Shown here piece by piece: positions 28,177-37,827 of a stretch of 37,827 nucleotides of DNA (the first letter of the stretch is position 1; each line of letters opens with the position of its first letter). The notes under the pieces were generated by a model. It saw only the letters and a program-made list of their open reading frames with translations. It did not search any database and was not told where the DNA came from. The stretch is taken from the NCBI GenBank assembly GCA_944359075.1, contig CALVSR010000007.1, positions 1 to 37,827 of the forward strand. Direction: 5' to 3'. Source of the stretch: an uncultured Bacilli bacterium (GTDB lineage: Bacteria; Bacillota_I; Bacilli_A; RF39; UBA660). The position numbers and the translations under genes were made by a program.

Positions 28177-28187
28177 AGGTGATAATC

Positions 28188-28748
28188 ATGAGTGATATTA
28201 TGACAGAATTATTAGATGTATTAGATGAAAATGGAAATAAAACAGGTCAAGTAGAAACAAAGGAAGAAATCTATAAAAAGGGATTATGGCACCGTTCTGT
28301 CCATATTTGGATTATGAACGATAATCAGGAATTATTAGTTCAAAAAAGGAATCCTTTTAAAAAAACATTTCCCAATCTATGGGCTATTTCCTCAGCTGGC
28401 CATGTAATGGCAGGAGAGAGTAGTATGGAATCGGGATTACGAGAATTAAAAGAAGAATTAGATATTGATGCGAAAGAAGAAGAATTAGAATTCTTATTTA
28501 CAATCAAAAGAGTTCAGCCATATCATGATTCTTATATTCGTGTTTTTGATGATGTCTATCTACTTCATAAAAATATAGATGTAGAAAAAACAAAACTTCA
28601 AGTAGAAGAGTTAACAGATATTAAATATGTATATTATGAATATTTAGAAAATATCTTCAAAGAAGGGGATAAAGACTATGTACCATACACAGAGGAACAT
28701 CAAAAACTATTCTCACTTCTAGAAGATAGGAATTTAGAAATTATATAA
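28188..28748 (+). CDS. NUDIX hydrolase
   Basis: The protein has about 186 residues with a NUDIX box running from GHVMAGE to REL.EEL, but with Asp where the last Gly usually stands (EELDI). The LLDVLDENGNKTGQ start, GLWHRSVHIWI and KRNPFKKTFPNLWAISSAGHV resemble the subgroup annotated as isopentenyl-diphosphate isomerase-like, whose members often hydrolyse other nucleoside or isoprenoid diphosphates. ATG 28188 is preferred, with AGGTGA five bases upstream. It appears to be a single-gene unit. Substrate not predictable. Confidence 0.85.
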   Translation: MSDIMTELLDVLDENGNKTGQVETKEEIYKKGLWHRSVHIWIMNDNQELLVQKRNPFKKTFPNLWAISSAGHVMAGESSMESGLRELKEELDIDAKEEELEFLFTIKRVQPYHDSYIRVFDDVYLLHKNIDVEKTKLQVEELTDIKYVYYEYLENIFKEGDKDYVPYTEEHQKLFSLLEDRNLEII

Positions 28749-31274: not shown

Positions 31275-33599
31275 ATGGAAAATTTATCATATCCATTATG
31301 CGGACTTTTAGTAGCAATACTAATATATGTAATCTATTTTTCTAAAAAAAGGTTAGATAGTTTTGAGACTAAAATATACGGAAATTTAATTACATTTTGT
31401 TTGATTCAAGCAATAATAGAAGTAGTGGGGGTAATTATATTCAATTCATTTGGAACCTTAGCCATTATGTATTGGATGGTCAAAATCGATTATGTTTTCA
31501 TTTTACTATGGGGATGGAGCTTATTTAGATATATATTATACATCGCACCATTAAAAGATAAAATGCGTACTATTTTAGATAAAATGATAGCATTTATAGT
31601 ATTTTTGTTTTGCCCTATTATTTTATTCTCAAAAGTTTCTATTATAAACTCTAATAATGTATTAGACAGTTATGGAGATTCTACCAATTTTTTATATGTG
31701 ATATGTTTTATCCTAATTATTTTAATAGTAAGTTTAGTCATTGCTACTATCATTAAAGATGACAAACATTTTAAAAATAAAAAACTAATTCCATTGTACA
31801 GTTTGGTATTGCTAGTAATAGGAGCAATGATGATTAGATTGTACTATTCACAGATTGTTATACAAGCATTTATCCTAGCATTTGTAGATTTAATTATGTA
31901 TCATACTATTGAAAATCCAGATATGAAAATGATAGAACAGTTAAATATAGCGAAAGAACAGGCAGAAAAAGCCAACCATGCTAAAACCGATTTCTTATCT
32001 AGTATGAGTCATGAAATTAGAACCCCTCTAAATGCCATTAGTGGATTTAGTCAGTGTATCGAAACAGCAGAAACATTAGAAGAAGCCAAAGAAAATGCTA
32101 AAGATATAATTTCTGCAAGTGAAGCATTATTAGAAATTGTGAATGGAATTTTAGATATTTCTAAAATAGAAGCAGGAAAATTAGAAATTACGAATTCTGA
32201 CTATAATGCGAAAGAATTATTTGAAACAACAGCTAGATTAATTATGCCAAGAATAGAAGAAAAAGGACTAGATTTTAGAATTCATATTTCCGAAGATCTA
32301 CCAGAGGTTCTATATGGAGATCATACCAACCTAAGAAAAGCAGTAACCAATATCTTAACCAATGCTGCTAAATATACGGAAAAAGGATATGTTGATTATA
32401 CAGTAAATTGTGTTAGAAACGGAGATGTTTGTCGACTAATTATTTCGGTAGAGGATACAGGACGCGGAATTAAGAAGGAAAACATAGACAAGTTATTTAC
32501 AAAATTTCAAAGATTAGATGAAGATAAAAATACTACGATTGAAGGTACAGGATTAGGACTTGCGATTACCAAACAAATTTTAATGTTAATGGGAGGTAAT
32601 ATTGTAGTCCAAAGTGTTTATGGGAGTGGTTCTAAATTTACCATAGTAGTAGATCAAAAAATAAAAGAAAAATCACAAAACACAACAGTAGTATATAATC
32701 CTCAAACAGCTAATAGCGTAGTGGATTTATCCAACAAAACTATTTTAATAGTTGATGATAATAAGTTAAATTTAAAAGTAGGAGTAAAAATTATCAATTC
32801 TATTTATAAGACTATTATCGAAACAGCAGAAAGTGGTTTTGAGTGTCTAGAAAAAGTAAAAGTTAAAAACTATGATTTAATCTTAATGGATGATATGATG
32901 CCAAAAATGAGTGGAGTAGAAACCCTAAAAGAATTAAAAAAAATCGATGGATTTCATACGCCTGTGGTAGCCTTAACCGCTAATGCAATAGCAGGGATGA
33001 GAGAAAAATATTTACAAAATGGTTTTGTTGAATACTTAGCCAAACCGATTGAGAAAGAAGAATTAAAAAGAGTGGTCAACTTGCTATTTAAAAATAATGA
33101 TTCAAGAAATACAACTAATCCTGCAAAAGAAAGAATTGAATTCGAAGAATTACCAAAAGAGTTTTATGAAATAGGAAATCAAAAAGATGTTCAAGCAATG
33201 ATAACCCCAACGGAAACAGATATTAGAAACACAAATGCAGATATAGAGTTTTTAAAGAAGAATGGAATTGATGTAGATAGTGGAATTAGCTTGTTAGGAG
33301 ATATTGATGCATATCAAGAGACCTTACAAGATTTCTATCATAATTTGGAAGAGAGAATCAAGAAAATAACTACATTAAAAGAAAATCAAGATATGGTTAA
33401 TTATGCTGTTGAAGTTCATGCTTTAAAAAGTGACTCTAAATACTTAGGGTTCACCAAGTTAGCAAACTGTGCATTAGAACATGAATTAAAAAGTAAAGAA
33501 AATGATATTCAATTTGTACAAGAACATTATCCAGAACTATTAAATGAGGTAGAAAGAATTAAACAAATAATAAGTGAATATATAAAAAAGTATTTATAA
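31275..33599 (+). CDS. Hybrid sensor histidine kinase with receiver and Hpt domains
   Basis: The first ~210 residues form six or seven membrane helices without a large external domain, so the signal is probably sensed in the membrane. Then come a HisKA domain with His246 (SSMSHEIRTPLNAISG), a HATPase (NAAKYTEKG, DTGRGI, GTGLGLAI), a receiver with Asp539 (LMDDMMPKMSG) and the conserved Lys590, and a C-terminal Hpt with His715 (VHALKSDSKYLGF). One protein therefore holds the whole relay up to the final response regulator, and no DNA-binding regulator is encoded nearby. It is the last gene of the operon with the esterase and the PlsC-like enzyme. Confidence 0.9.
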   Translation: MENLSYPLCGLLVAILIYVIYFSKKRLDSFETKIYGNLITFCLIQAIIEVVGVIIFNSFGTLAIMYWMVKIDYVFILLWGWSLFRYILYIAPLKDKMRTILDKMIAFIVFLFCPIILFSKVSIINSNNVLDSYGDSTNFLYVICFILIILIVSLVIATIIKDDKHFKNKKLIPLYSLVLLVIGAMMIRLYYSQIVIQAFILAFVDLIMYHTIENPDMKMIEQLNIAKEQAEKANHAKTDFLSSMSHEIRTPLNAISGFSQCIETAETLEEAKENAKDIISASEALLEIVNGILDISKIEAGKLEITNSDYNAKELFETTARLIMPRIEEKGLDFRIHISEDLPEVLYGDHTNLRKAVTNILTNAAKYTEKGYVDYTVNCVRNGDVCRLIISVEDTGRGIKKENIDKLFTKFQRLDEDKNTTIEGTGLGLAITKQILMLMGGNIVVQSVYGSGSKFTIVVDQKIKEKSQNTTVVYNPQTANSVVDLSNKTILIVDDNKLNLKVGVKIINSIYKTIIETAESGFECLEKVKVKNYDLILMDDMMPKMSGVETLKELKKIDGFHTPVVALTANAIAGMREKYLQNGFVEYLAKPIEKEELKRVVNLLFKNNDSRNTTNPAKERIEFEELPKEFYEIGNQKDVQAMITPTETDIRNTNADIEFLKKNGIDVDSGISLLGDIDAYQETLQDFYHNLEERIKKITTLKENQDMVNYAVEVHALKSDSKYLGFTKLANCALEHELKSKENDIQFVQEHYPELLNEVERIKQIISEYIKKYL

Positions 33600-33693: not shown

Positions 33694-34533
33694 ATGAAAG
33701 AAATTAAAAATTTCGTAGTGTTTAATTCACAAGTAAAACATGGACAAATGAATGCAGCTAAACAGTTTTATCCAGGTTTAGAAGATAATGCAGCTGAAAG
33801 GTCAAAATTAATGAGGGAACATAAACAAGCAATTGCTAATGAAGTCGGATTCAATATTAACAATATCTTTATGTCTTTACAAGCAAATGAAAAACATCCA
33901 TATGTTCCAGGAACATCTTATACAGTTACTCCAGAAGATGTAGCAGAATATGAAGATCTTTATAATTATGATGTTTGGTCAGACACTATTAAATTAACTA
34001 GAAAAACACCAAGAACTGTAATTGGATTTAATATTTCAGATGGAGCTAATGTAATTGCTATGAATACAAATACCTTAGAAGCCACTTCTACTTTCTGTAG
34101 TGGTGCGCATATTAATAAAGGAGTTCCATTTACTATTGCATCAACTTTAGGTGGAAATCCTGAAGATATCATGGTAGATGTATCACCTTTTACCTACTAT
34201 TTTCCATTTGTAGGAAATGATACCATGAAAGAACCAAATTGGATAAGTAATAAACAGATTTGGTCAGATTGTTTAACTGAGAAAGATGGAATTTTATATA
34301 TCGATCAGAAAAAGGCTTTATTAAGACAATTAGAAGCTTCTGGAATTAAATCAGAAAATATTTATGTAAGAGAGAATTCTTTACAAAATTCAAATTATTA
34401 TTCTTCTCAAAGAGCAAGATTATCGGATGATAAGAGCCAAGATGGAAGATTCATGCATGGTGTTATGTTCGAATTAGAAGGACAGGAAAGAGAATACGAT
34501 CAAACATATATTAAAAAATATCCAGTAAAATAG
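33694..34533 (+). CDS. Divergent YfiH/laccase-domain-like protein
   Basis: The protein has 279 residues and is not secreted. The order of features recalls the YfiH/YlmD (DUF152) fold: a QANEKHPYV.G segment early, CSGAHINKGVPFTIASTLGG where YfiH has its HAGWRG loop, EDIMVDVSPFTYYFPFVG for the GPxIG segment, and a C-terminal NYYSSQRARLSDDKSQDGRFMHG like FFSYRRD...TGRM. The metal-binding His and Cys of active YfiH enzymes do not appear at the usual places, so it may have another substrate or none. GAGGGGAT lies upstream. It has its own strong promoter and directly precedes the structured RNA. Homology is by eye and moderate. Confidence 0.45.
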   Translation: MKEIKNFVVFNSQVKHGQMNAAKQFYPGLEDNAAERSKLMREHKQAIANEVGFNINNIFMSLQANEKHPYVPGTSYTVTPEDVAEYEDLYNYDVWSDTIKLTRKTPRTVIGFNISDGANVIAMNTNTLEATSTFCSGAHINKGVPFTIASTLGGNPEDIMVDVSPFTYYFPFVGNDTMKEPNWISNKQIWSDCLTEKDGILYIDQKKALLRQLEASGIKSENIYVRENSLQNSNYYSSQRARLSDDKSQDGRFMHGVMFELEGQEREYDQTYIKKYPVK

Positions 34534-34558: not shown

Positions 34559-34586
34559 TTTTGAATATCTTATTTTGAATATCTTA
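34559..34586. repeat. Perfect 14-bp tandem duplication at the structured-RNA promoter
   Basis: TTTTGAATATCTTA occurs twice head to tail at 34559-34572 and 34573-34586. The first copy supplies the -35 region and the second leads into the -10 box of the RNA promoter. Confidence 0.85.
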
Positions 34587-34590
34587 TAAT
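34561..34590 (+). promoter_or_regulatory. Promoter of the OLE-like RNA
   Basis: TTGAAT (34561-34566) and TATAAT (34585-34590) are separated by 18 bp. The predicted start, at about 34597, coincides with the first bases of the RNA's closing stem, which supports it. Confidence 0.7.
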
Positions 34591-34596
34591 ATAATA

Positions 34597-35175
34597 AGAA
34601 ATGGTGCATTATTCTAGTCGCAATCAGTTGTTACAAAGACGAGCCTAAAAATTCGTTAAAGAGCACATCTGTGAAGCATCTGGTGCCTGCTTAGTACGCC
34701 CAGTATTGGGTGGGTGCTGGATGAAAGAGTCTATGGGCGCTCATAATGGCATATGACAAACGACCCATCTTCTCGTGGAGACCTAATCTTGTGGAATTAC
34801 AAGTTCTACGACTTAGGATAAAACCTATCATGTGGAGAAATCTACGGATAGTGTAGCTTGGCTTGCGTGATATATGGGGATAGAGACAGCTTACGAAAAG
34901 ATGTACAGCTTTTATGTAAGTATTGCTACTTGAAACATATGTTGCAAAAAAGCATAGTAATAACTCGAATGTGTTTGAGGAAAACTCCTAGAATGTACAA
35001 TTAATATAGGATTGCAGTGTATACTAAGTGGTAATCAAGTCATAGAATTGGTGACAATCTATTGCTTTCTTTTAAGGGGAACCGCTTACTGGTAACGGTA
35101 AGTAGAAAGTAGGGAAATCCAACTTGACCTAAGATACAAAGTTTACTATATTAATGACCATTTCTTATTTTTTTT
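34597..35175 (+). ncRNA. ole: OLE RNA (ornate, large, extremophilic), large structured non-coding RNA
   Basis: The 666 bp between two genes has no plausible coding frame and is clearly richer in GC than the genes. Its ends pair perfectly: AATAAGAAATGGT at 34593-34605 with ACCATTTCTTATT at 35157-35169, the right arm running into a T tract. Inside are several stable hairpins: CTTACTG/CGGTAAG with a GTAA tetraloop (35085-35102), enclosed by CTTTC (35075-35079)/GAAAG (35105-35109), and CTTGT/ACAAG and CCTAA/TTAGG in the middle. The length (~580 nt), the closed 5'-3' pairing, the GGGGAACCGCTTAC 3' domain and the membrane protein gene 25 bp downstream fit OLE RNA, which with OapA forms a membrane-bound ribonucleoprotein linked to stress tolerance in Bacillota. 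The identification rests on memory of the family, with no covariance search. Confidence 0.75.
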
Positions 35176-35199
35176 ATGATTTATAGTCGAGGTTAAAAA

Positions 35200-35787
35200 A
35201 TGAAACAAAAAAAATTTAATGAAAAGTATTCCAAAAAAGCAGCTAAGAAGCCTGTAAAAAACAAAAGATTAGTAGATTATAGATGGATTTTGACTGTAAC
35301 AGTATTAGCTTTTTTTATCTCTTTGACATTTTCTTTTTTTTCGGAATCTACCATTCCTAATGCGAATAGTATTGTAGCAGTTGTTATCATTCTTTTATTT
35401 ATTGGAATCGGTATTTTATTTGATATGATTGGAATTGCCATCACTGTTGCTGACATAAAAACATTTAATTCTATGGCTACTAAGCAAGTAAAAGGTGCAA
35501 AACTTGCCGTGAAATTGATCCAAAATAATGAAAAAGCATCTAGTTTTTGTAATGATGTAATCGGAGATATCTGCGGTATTATTAGTGGTTCTGCTGGCGT
35601 AGCCTTTTCCAATATATTATCAGAAAGCCTACATTGGAATTTATTGATAGTAAATTTAATGATTACAGCTATGATAGCAGCATTAACCATCGGTGGAAAA
35701 GCAATTGGTAAAGCTACCGCGATTAATAAAAGTACTCTAATATTATTTCAATTTTCAAAAGTAATATCTTGCTTTTGTAGAAAATAA
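35200..35787 (+). CDS. oapA: OLE-associated membrane protein OapA
   Basis: The protein has 195 residues: a basic N-terminus (1-25), then DYRWILTVTVLAF and about four membrane helices (28-48, 57-80, 115-138, 148-168). The conserved-looking core includes ILFDMIGIAITVAD (Asp75, Asp85), FNSMATKQVKGAKLAVKLI and SSFCNDVIGDICGIISGSAG, then GGKAIGK near the C-terminus. These features match OapA, the RNA-binding membrane partner of OLE RNA, related to the DUF21 part of CorB/C transporters. In known genomes oapA lies directly downstream of ole, as here. The start has GAGG eight bases upstream. Transcription probably comes through the ole terminator region. Confidence 0.82.
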   Translation: MKQKKFNEKYSKKAAKKPVKNKRLVDYRWILTVTVLAFFISLTFSFFSESTIPNANSIVAVVIILLFIGIGILFDMIGIAITVADIKTFNSMATKQVKGAKLAVKLIQNNEKASSFCNDVIGDICGIISGSAGVAFSNILSESLHWNLLIVNLMITAMIAALTIGGKAIGKATAINKSTLILFQFSKVISCFCRK

Positions 35788-35872
35788 GTTTTAAATCTAT
35801 CAGCTTATAGAGTAGTGAATCTTCCGCTTTAAATTTTTTTTGTTAGACAAATTATTTTTTTTTTGATATACT
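35788..35872. other. Short AT-rich gap between oapA and the IS element
   Basis: The 85 bp between oapA and the IS left end contain T tracts but no convincing hairpin, promoter or reading frame. Confidence 0.5.
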
Positions 35873-35890
35873 CCTGACTTTGACAGTTTT
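35873..35890 (+). repeat. Left terminal inverted repeat of the IS1634-type element
   Basis: CCTGACTTTGACAGTTTT, matching the complement of 37810-37827 at 16 of 18 positions. Confidence 0.85.
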
Positions 35891-35895
35891 TAAAA

Positions 35896-35948
35896 ATCAA
35901 AAAGACTCGAGTCCTTTATTTATAAGGAATTATGAGTCTTTTTTGATA
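35896..35948. terminator. Strong bidirectional hairpin at the 3' end of the IS transposase gene
   Basis: An outer stem (AATCAAAAAGACTC with GAGTCTTTTTTGAT) encloses an inner stem (TCCTT at 35912-35916 with AAGGA at 35924-35928). With T runs on both strands it can end transposase transcription and also block transcription leaving oapA. Confidence 0.75.
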
Positions 35949-35970
35949 TTGAAAAAATGCGTAATGTGAA

Positions 35971-37704
35971 CTATCTTTTGATTAGCTCAAAAATTTTTTT
36001 AAAATCTTTATAAGTATTTATTTCATAGTCAGTTCTAAAGCCAAATGTATCGTGCAAATCATCAGTTAGATTTGTTCTTATATATTCTGGAATATAACCA
36101 TCACCTTTGGATTCTAATACATTCATATTTCTTATTGCTTTAAGAATTTCCAAAGTTGTATATTTATAATCTAATTTCTTTTCAAGTATTCTATAAATAA
36201 GTAATGCCATAAAACATGTTAAGAAATGAGATTTAATTCTATCTTCTCTTGATAGGTTAACTGGTCTAGCCAAAAAGTCTGTTTTCATTATTCTGAATGA
36301 TTCTTCAATTTCCCATCTTCCTTTTGTTATTTTAAGTATTTGTTCAATATCTCCAACTAAGTTAGTAGTTAAAGCATAATAACCATCATATTGTTCTTCT
36401 TGTTTAATTAAATCTTCATCTAAGGAAAGGTTAGAATTTTCTGCAACTTCACCAGTGTCAGTTGATTTAGTATCAACAATAAATCTTCTATAATCATTTT
36501 GATTTTTACCTTTGCGAGCAGCTTGATTTGTATCAATAGATTTTTTAGCTCGTTCAATTTGTGAGTTTCTAATATTTCTATTGTAGTCAAAGTATTTAAA
36601 GGAGAAAGTTACTATTAAATCTTGTTTAACAGATTTAGTTTCACTAGAAATAATTTTATAAAATAATTTATCATAATATTTTTCTTTTAATTCTTCATTA
36701 TTTCTAATTTCATTTAAATTGTAAACATTTCTTAGATCTCCTGGAAGCCTCCAATCATTATCATCAAACACTTTTTCTTTTTCAGATTCTTTTAATTTTT
36801 TTAATGATTGTGTAATGACAAAACCTCGATTATCCTTAACATTAAATTTTTTTATTTCGTCAGAAGCAAGTCCGGCATCAGTACATAAGATCATTTTAGT
36901 GTTATCCATTTTAAAGTTATTTACTATTTTAGTTTCTTCAGGTATTAATGTCTTTTGTTCATTTTGATTACCTGGATAAATATTAAACGATAATGGAATA
37001 CCGTCACCATCCATAAATAACCCCATACCAACTTGTGGTTTTGGTTGATGTTGTTTATTTATTCCATATTTTCTAAATTCATCATCAAGTTCTATTTCGA
37101 AGAAATAATTTGTACAGTCATAATAAATTATTCCTGAATTTCTTTCTATTATACTTTTACTATTTTCAAATATTTTTTCTTGAATAAAATCAATATTATC
37201 GGCTAAATAACTTAAAGCTCTATATTCATCATGTAATTGAAATTTAGGTTGTTCAATAAAATTTTGGCATTGTTTATATGTTTCTAATTTAGATGCAGGA
37301 TAAATAATTCTAGCAAATACCAAATATGATAATATTTCATTTAAATCAAATTTGAATTGATATTTATTTTGTATATTATCACAAATATCCTTTAGTTTTA
37401 ATTGATTATATATTTTTTCTAGAAATAGATATCCAACATTAAATTTATTATTAATATTAGAATCAATAATTTTTTTATTATTTTTTTTAATAGTTATAAT
37501 TTCTTTTTTACAATGTTCTTCATTATATTTTTTAACATAATCTTTTAGCCATTCTTGATAATCTTGATTACCAGCTAATTTTTTTACTTCTTCAAGATTG
37601 CCAATTCTTTCAACATGTTTAGTAGAACGTTTACCATTTTTAGTGTAATCTTTAATAATATAATAATTAATTGTGTTTTTTGATTTAGAAATTCCTAGTC
37701 TCAT
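35971..37704 (-). CDS. IS1634 family transposase
   Basis: This is a DDE transposase of about 577 residues. The N-terminus (MRLGISKSKNTINYYIIKDY and RSTKHVERIGNLEE) is typical of IS1634. The catalytic residues are in IYYDCTNYFFE, LCTDAGLASDE and GRWEIEESFRIMKTDF. No frameshift or early stop is visible, so it may be active. The ATG at 37704 is preferred, since AGAAGG lies six bases upstream on the minus strand; a start at 37737 would add 11 residues. Confidence 0.88.
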   Translation of the reverse strand: MRLGISKSKNTINYYIIKDYTKNGKRSTKHVERIGNLEEVKKLAGNQDYQEWLKDYVKKYNEEHCKKEIITIKKNNKKIIDSNINNKFNVGYLFLEKIYNQLKLKDICDNIQNKYQFKFDLNEILSYLVFARIIYPASKLETYKQCQNFIEQPKFQLHDEYRALSYLADNIDFIQEKIFENSKSIIERNSGIIYYDCTNYFFEIELDDEFRKYGINKQHQPKPQVGMGLFMDGDGIPLSFNIYPGNQNEQKTLIPEETKIVNNFKMDNTKMILCTDAGLASDEIKKFNVKDNRGFVITQSLKKLKESEKEKVFDDNDWRLPGDLRNVYNLNEIRNNEELKEKYYDKLFYKIISSETKSVKQDLIVTFSFKYFDYNRNIRNSQIERAKKSIDTNQAARKGKNQNDYRRFIVDTKSTDTGEVAENSNLSLDEDLIKQEEQYDGYYALTTNLVGDIEQILKITKGRWEIEESFRIMKTDFLARPVNLSREDRIKSHFLTCFMALLIYRILEKKLDYKYTTLEILKAIRNMNVLESKGDGYIPEYIRTNLTDDLHDTFGFRTDYEINTYKDFKKIFELIKR

Positions 37705-37809
37705 AATATACCTTCTTACAGTACAATCATACAACATAACGATACATTACGCAAGAGTAAAATGATAAAAAAACTAAGTTTTTCAACGCTTAGTGAAGAT
37801 TTTTGATTT

Positions 37810-37827
37810 AAAACTGTCAAACTCGGG
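37810..37827 (-). repeat. Right terminal inverted repeat of the IS1634-type element
   Basis: AAAACTGTCAAACTCGGG, the complement of the left repeat with two mismatches, ending exactly at the window edge. Confidence 0.85.

Follow-up and report, generated by a model that had tools for sequence, protein, structure and literature searches.

A full-length OLE RNA encoded directly upstream of oapA at a conserved, losable locus in a small-genome gut Bacilli bacterium

The window analyzed here, taken at its whole length, comprises positions 1–37,827 of contig CALVSR010000007.1 (GCA_944359075.1) from an uncultured Bacilli bacterium (RF39; UBA660) with a small genome (1.34 Mb). All genomes compared were fragmented metagenome assemblies of ~90% completeness. 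A NUDIX protein similar to type 1 IPP isomerase is encoded at 28179–28748 (+); most of the genus members examined have it at the OLE locus, whether or not they carry OLE. Further along, a 279-aa divergent YfiH/Cu-oxidase_4-like protein (33694–34533, +; PF02578, E = 0.0019, below cut-off) is followed by an OLE RNA, the gene oapA and an IS1634-family insertion sequence. A hybrid histidine kinase that contains receiver and Hpt domains is encoded upstream of the YfiH-like gene (31275–33599), and relatives of it were also seen upstream of OLE in L053 and L054. A sequence-only reading of the same DNA had placed the RNA between a YfiH-like gene and an IS; the upstream gene is indeed weakly YfiH-like and the IS belongs to the IS1634 family, but the intervening oapA had been missed.

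A scan of the whole window against Rfam returned OLE (RF01071) at 34585–35177 on the forward strand, with a score of 411.3 bits (E = 1.3e-117; gathering score, 50 bits) covering model positions 1–616 of 616. OLE was the only family that Rfam returned at the site, and a tRNA or other RNA class there was accordingly rejected. The region is non-coding, with no ORF of at least 80 aa between 34534 and 35199, and the G+C content of the match is 37%, compared with about 24–32% in the flanks. Its folding energy of −174.7 kcal/mol corresponds to a z score of −6.4 relative to dinucleotide shuffles, with 0 of 100 reaching as low a value. The stretch 34593–35175, which the earlier reading had called a likely OLE RNA and described as non-coding and GC-enriched, is a genuine full-length OLE RNA and a further example of a known, large bacterial non-coding RNA; the mature molecule probably spans 34593 to about 35177. 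Hosts of this kind are already on record for OLE (PMC11332333), and the window adds one more good OLE RNA to them; the neighborhood is more useful than the RNA by itself.

Structural conservation was assessed in an alignment of 20 full-length OLE sequences from the same family as the window host, onto which the Rfam structure was projected by way of the window sequence, with the closing stem added. Paired cells amounted to 87.3% (74.7% in shuffles), compensatory changes on both sides were found at 103 of 167 pairs (65 in shuffles), and the covariation score was 0.397 (0.167 in shuffles); 0 of 500 shuffles reached the observed values. In slid controls, about 40% of cells were paired, and 37–52 pairs with double changes were reported. 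The 13-bp perfect closing pair noticed earlier is exact, joining 34593–34605 (+; AATAAGAAATGGT) to 35157–35169 (+; ACCATTTCTTATT), the latter being followed by a run of T. Rfam draws these two strands as unpaired ends; since 81.5% of their cells are paired and 9 of the 13 pairs have changed on both sides, the closing stem is real.

Helices corresponding to P7 (34782–34817, +; starting near position 198 of the Rfam model, with 9 doubly changed pairs and 87.9% of cells paired) and P8 (34825–34851, +; model about 250–278; 85% of cells paired) are both present, the helix numbers being inferred from PMC11332333. The 3′ domain carries two hairpins conserved in the alignment and capped by GNRA loops, as had been proposed. 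One, at 35042–35062 (+) with loop GUGA (35051–35054), is helix 17, in which 94% of cells are paired and 8 of 8 pairs covary, and is probably P12.2. The other, at 35084–35103 (+) with loop GUAA (35092–35095), is helix 19, with 97% of cells paired, and is probably P13, the hairpin bound by OapB in H. halodurans. Helix 11 was a poor fit (54% of cells paired), attributed here to the way in which a variable arm was aligned.

The claim that the RNA has its own promoter could not be sustained from the single sequence, where a promoter scan performed no better than chance (12 found, 14 expected), but it was borne out by conserved spacing among relatives. In the window, the candidate promoter TTGAAT-18-TATAAT (34561–34590, +) matches the consensus at 10 of 12 positions. 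Counterparts were found in 18 of 20 relatives, each a sigma-70 promoter with at least 10/12 matches and a −10 box ending 10–17 nt upstream of the TGGY conserved in the closing stem; L060 and G021 were the two without a qualifying promoter. For each sequence, no more than 5.5% of shuffling trials reached this standard. Because the promoter lies at a fixed distance from the closing stem, transcription would be expected to start at about the stem. No terminator-like site was found by scan between OLE and oapA.

The ORF at 35200–35787 (+), which begins 30 nt downstream of the OLE RNA and lies between it and the IS, encodes a 195-aa protein. No Pfam family matched it above cut-off (PF01595 fell below); it is nevertheless OapA (OLE-associated membrane protein A), as shown by its co-occurrence with OLE, its DxxxD motif and its predicted fold. 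The motif, DVIGD at residues 119–123, has both aspartates invariant in 21 of 21 sequences; DxxxD is distinctive of OapA and absent from CNNM domains (PMC11332333). In searches with a predicted model of the protein (pLDDT 83), the only convincing PDB matches were CNNM/CorB/CorC transmembrane domains, which made up all of the top five (including 7m1t, 7m1u, 7cff and 7cfg), with modest structural scores (best E = 0.004, TM = 0.47). A relationship to CNNM proteins is also what the literature reports for OapA. At 195 aa, the protein is too short to include CBS or CorC domains. Across 58 relatives, the presence of OLE agreed with that of oapA, the two mismatches (G008 and G034) both falling at contig ends. 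oapA is the commonest immediate neighbor of ole (PMC12265935). No OapA relatives were confirmed in viral contigs.

Within the genus, the gene order is NUDIX, a variable gene, OLE, oapA, U185 and NAGPA, usually then pyruvate:ferredoxin oxidoreductase (PFOR). U185, a 186-aa protein, and the NAGPA-type glycosidase were the original downstream neighbors before the IS arrived, and the pair follows OLE–oapA in 10 of 10 OLE-plus genomes checked, with oapA and U185 on separate contigs in G000 and G011. PFOR follows NAGPA in the OLE-plus genomes checked, except G014. The upstream side is usually occupied by the IPP-isomerase-like NUDIX protein plus a variable gene; the YfiH-like gene adjoins OLE in several but not all members and lies outside the OLE unit. 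Four OLE-minus genomes (G001, G005, G007 and G013) retain NUDIX and U185–NAGPA–PFOR while OLE and oapA are both gone, and a fifth (G016) retains U185–NAGPA–PFOR on a contig that ends upstream. No OLE remnants were detected near the locus in OLE-minus relatives at E values up to 10. Two changes suffice to account for the presence and absence of OLE, both on the NAGPA + PFOR tree and on rpoB. The ole–oapA pair is a conserved, losable unit at its locus and not a mobile copy. Because OLE stands directly upstream of oapA, and the genus conserves this locus, the suggestion that its setting is unusual was not supported.

U185 was itself found to be conserved between oapA and NAGPA (184–212 aa; L052:623–1183, L054:6669–7232, L083:2578–3138 and other genus loci), and also where OLE–oapA is missing. 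A single membrane helix lies at its N terminus, and a D-x-N-x-D-G loop in its C-terminal part resembles a calcium-binding motif.

The insertion sequence (35873–37827, −) is 1955 bp long with terminal repeats CCYGASTTTGACAGTTTT. Its transposase (35971–37737) matches NF033559 at 336.6 bits (cut-off 100). A 201-bp target duplication, consisting of the end of oapA plus downstream spacer, gives an exact repeat, the left copy lying at 35672–35872 and the second beyond the right IS end, at the end of contig C17. The rejoined empty site matched, at 98.6% over 432 bp, locus L052 of the close relative G008, which has the same site without the IS. The element is a later insertion that does not carry the OLE RNA, and oapA was left intact by it. 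A second OapA match (G000:C17:27326–27463) was considered as a duplicate gene and rejected, being the other half of the target duplication. Long target duplications of variable size (8–514 bp) are a known trait of IS1634-type elements (PMC2266710); the present one is unusually long, copies the end of oapA (window; L044) and marks contigs C7 and C17 as genomic neighbors.

Searches across the order found OLE in 165 of 290 genomes and 73 of 101 genera. Counted from the score table, in which the lowest-scoring genomes are not given individually, the 165 carriers divide into 108 with at least 330 bits (full length), 53 with 248 bits or less and 4 in between. Full-length here means that the P7/P8 region is retained, and short (variant 2) that it is absent; one short OLE that was aligned, that of G028, is missing roughly model positions 198–286 (P7, P8). 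RF39 variant 2 OLEs have been described without P7/P8 (PMC11332333). If the order corresponds to RF39, as is probably the case, full-length OLE is common there, which the summary of PMC11332333 does not convey. With 411 bits, a place in the full-length lineage and so many carriers in its order, the suggestion that the window RNA may be a divergent representative was not supported.

After exclusion of the P7/P8 columns, the OLE tree puts 20 of 21 short OLEs on one side of a 100/100 branch. The OapA tree has the same split (100/99), and the single exception, G076, takes the corresponding position in each tree. The window OLE and OapA branch with close relatives in agreement with rpoB. On the rpoB tree, the short carriers G154 and G185 lie inside genera g73 and g56, respectively, among full-length carriers, and short and full-length cassettes occupy different loci. 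No genome is listed with both types. In the mixed genera, short cassettes were recorded in G185 (L121), G154 (L118) and G292 (L119) and full-length ones in L138–L145, and the OLE type always matched the OapA type. One metagenome assembly, G227, has two full-length OLE copies (C37:9232–9824 and C101:1296–1892), which may be real or an assembly mixture.

Lateral replacement is the best explanation for the mixing of types within genera, with ancient paralogy and loss a possible alternative ranked below it. Misbinning is unlikely for G185, where the cassette is on a 236-kb contig, and possible for G154, where the contig is 24 kb. We lean, if only a little, toward a broader reading in which OLE RNA and OapA form one exchangeable and losable cassette, found as two deeply separate, co-inherited types within single genera; the complex here would then be a minimal OLE–OapA device, and losing it would not call for MpfA in its place. 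No OLE match was found in phages. A 78-bp piece with 82% identity to the window OLE was noted at NZ_AP023421.1:200891–200968, on a 504-kb conjugative plasmid of Pusillibacter faecalis, where it is unannotated; it is possibly an OLE RNA on a plasmid.

The other known partners were then considered. OapC (L7Ae family) was absent from all 21 family genomes searched. No OapB candidate was found in the window genome, whose only KOW proteins are uL24 and a 183-aa protein that is probably NusG, and OapB could have diverged beyond the reach of the KOW model. The P13-like hairpin, the target of OapB elsewhere, is kept though no OapB candidate was found. OapB and OapC occur in about 60% and 45% of OLE hosts, respectively, and published RF39 and TANB77 clades are without both (PMC11332333); these partners are not required for OLE membership. 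A bS21 gene is present in 19 of 21 family genomes, including that of the window, and the conserved G–C pairs of P6, the bS21 site, are kept in 20 of 20 sequences; the window RNA lacks the exact CCUCCU anti-Shine-Dalgarno mimic of that site.

The window genome yielded no CNNM-type transporter. Across the order, CNNM (MpfA-like) transporters are equally rare in OLE-plus (9 of 165) and OLE-minus (6 of 125) genomes (Fisher p = 1), a pattern at odds with a simple exchange of OLE for MpfA in this order, a reading that was rejected here, although the published OLE–MpfA anticorrelation spans all Bacillota. The genus offers near relatives with and without ole–oapA at the same site, both groups being without an MpfA-type transporter, so the published idea of MpfA as an all-protein substitute for OLE becomes testable in natural pairs. 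A minimal OLE complex that lacks OapB and OapC is also indicated.

Taken together, we consider it highly probable (roughly 0.92) that this is the ole gene of a small-genome gut Bacilli, with its own promoter, making a ~580-nt OLE RNA that works in a reduced ribonucleoprotein with the OapA encoded directly downstream. The gene would be transcribed from that promoter into a full-length RNA of ~580 nt closed by the 5′–3′ stem, and the RNA would assemble with OapA into a ribonucleoprotein. Homology with the H. halodurans system suggests that OapA anchors the RNA in the membrane and that the complex takes part there in Mg2+ handling and stress adaptation. The comparisons establish the identity of the RNA, its covarying structure, its pairing with oapA and the conservation of promoter and locus, whereas transcription, ribonucleoprotein assembly, membrane placement and physiological role are inferred. 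Because OapC is absent and no OapB candidate was found, the complex is probably reduced to OLE RNA, OapA and perhaps bS21.

Of the competing readings, the one most worth weighing is that the RNA serves mainly as a long 5′ leader through which oapA is controlled in cis, and not as a part of a trans-acting ribonucleoprotein. The 30-nt distance to oapA, the promoter and the lack of a terminator-like site in the scanned interval would all suit such a role. It is nonetheless improbable: oapA lies more than 1 kb away or on another contig in some relatives (G021, G019), another gene separates the two in genus g73 and in G185, and the H. halodurans OLE RNA binds OapA directly (PMC12265935). A decaying relic in a shrinking genome would accord with the 1.34-Mb genome and with the loss of OLE–oapA in relatives, yet the full-length high score, intact covarying helices, intact oapA and conserved promoter make this very unlikely.

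Least probable of all is the mobilized copy that the sequence-only reading had allowed for, considered here as one carried or moved by the neighboring IS. The element does sit just downstream of oapA in the window strain, and OLE is patchy within the genus; its ends, however, exclude OLE, it made its own 201-bp target duplication, and the G008 site is free of it. Genus members without the IS have OLE at the same locus, the branching of the window OLE and OapA with close relatives agrees with rpoB, and phages and plasmids yielded no OLE-sized match.

Among known systems, the window IS shares its transposase family, terminal repeats and long duplication with IS1634 insertion sequences, with no notable difference. 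With the MpfA/CorB-type CNNM Mg2+ transporters, OapA shares a predicted CNNM-like transmembrane fold, but differs in having DxxxD and no space for CBS/CorC domains. The closest counterpart is the H. halodurans OLE ribonucleoprotein (RF01071), to which the window corresponds in its full model match, all major helices, GNRA-capped 3′ domain and closing stem, and in having oapA directly downstream. It departs from that system in the conserved promoter of its own, whereas the H. halodurans ole lies within a polycistronic RNA (PMC12265935), and also in a host without OapC or an OapB candidate, a short P7 and the absence of the CCUCCU mimic of the bS21 site. The RF39 variant 2 OLEs (PMC11332333) likewise come from reduced-genome gut Bacilli without OapB/OapC, and short OLEs of that P7/P8-less kind occur in the family of the window host; in contrast to them, the window RNA keeps both P7 and P8 and belongs to a separate, full-length lineage.
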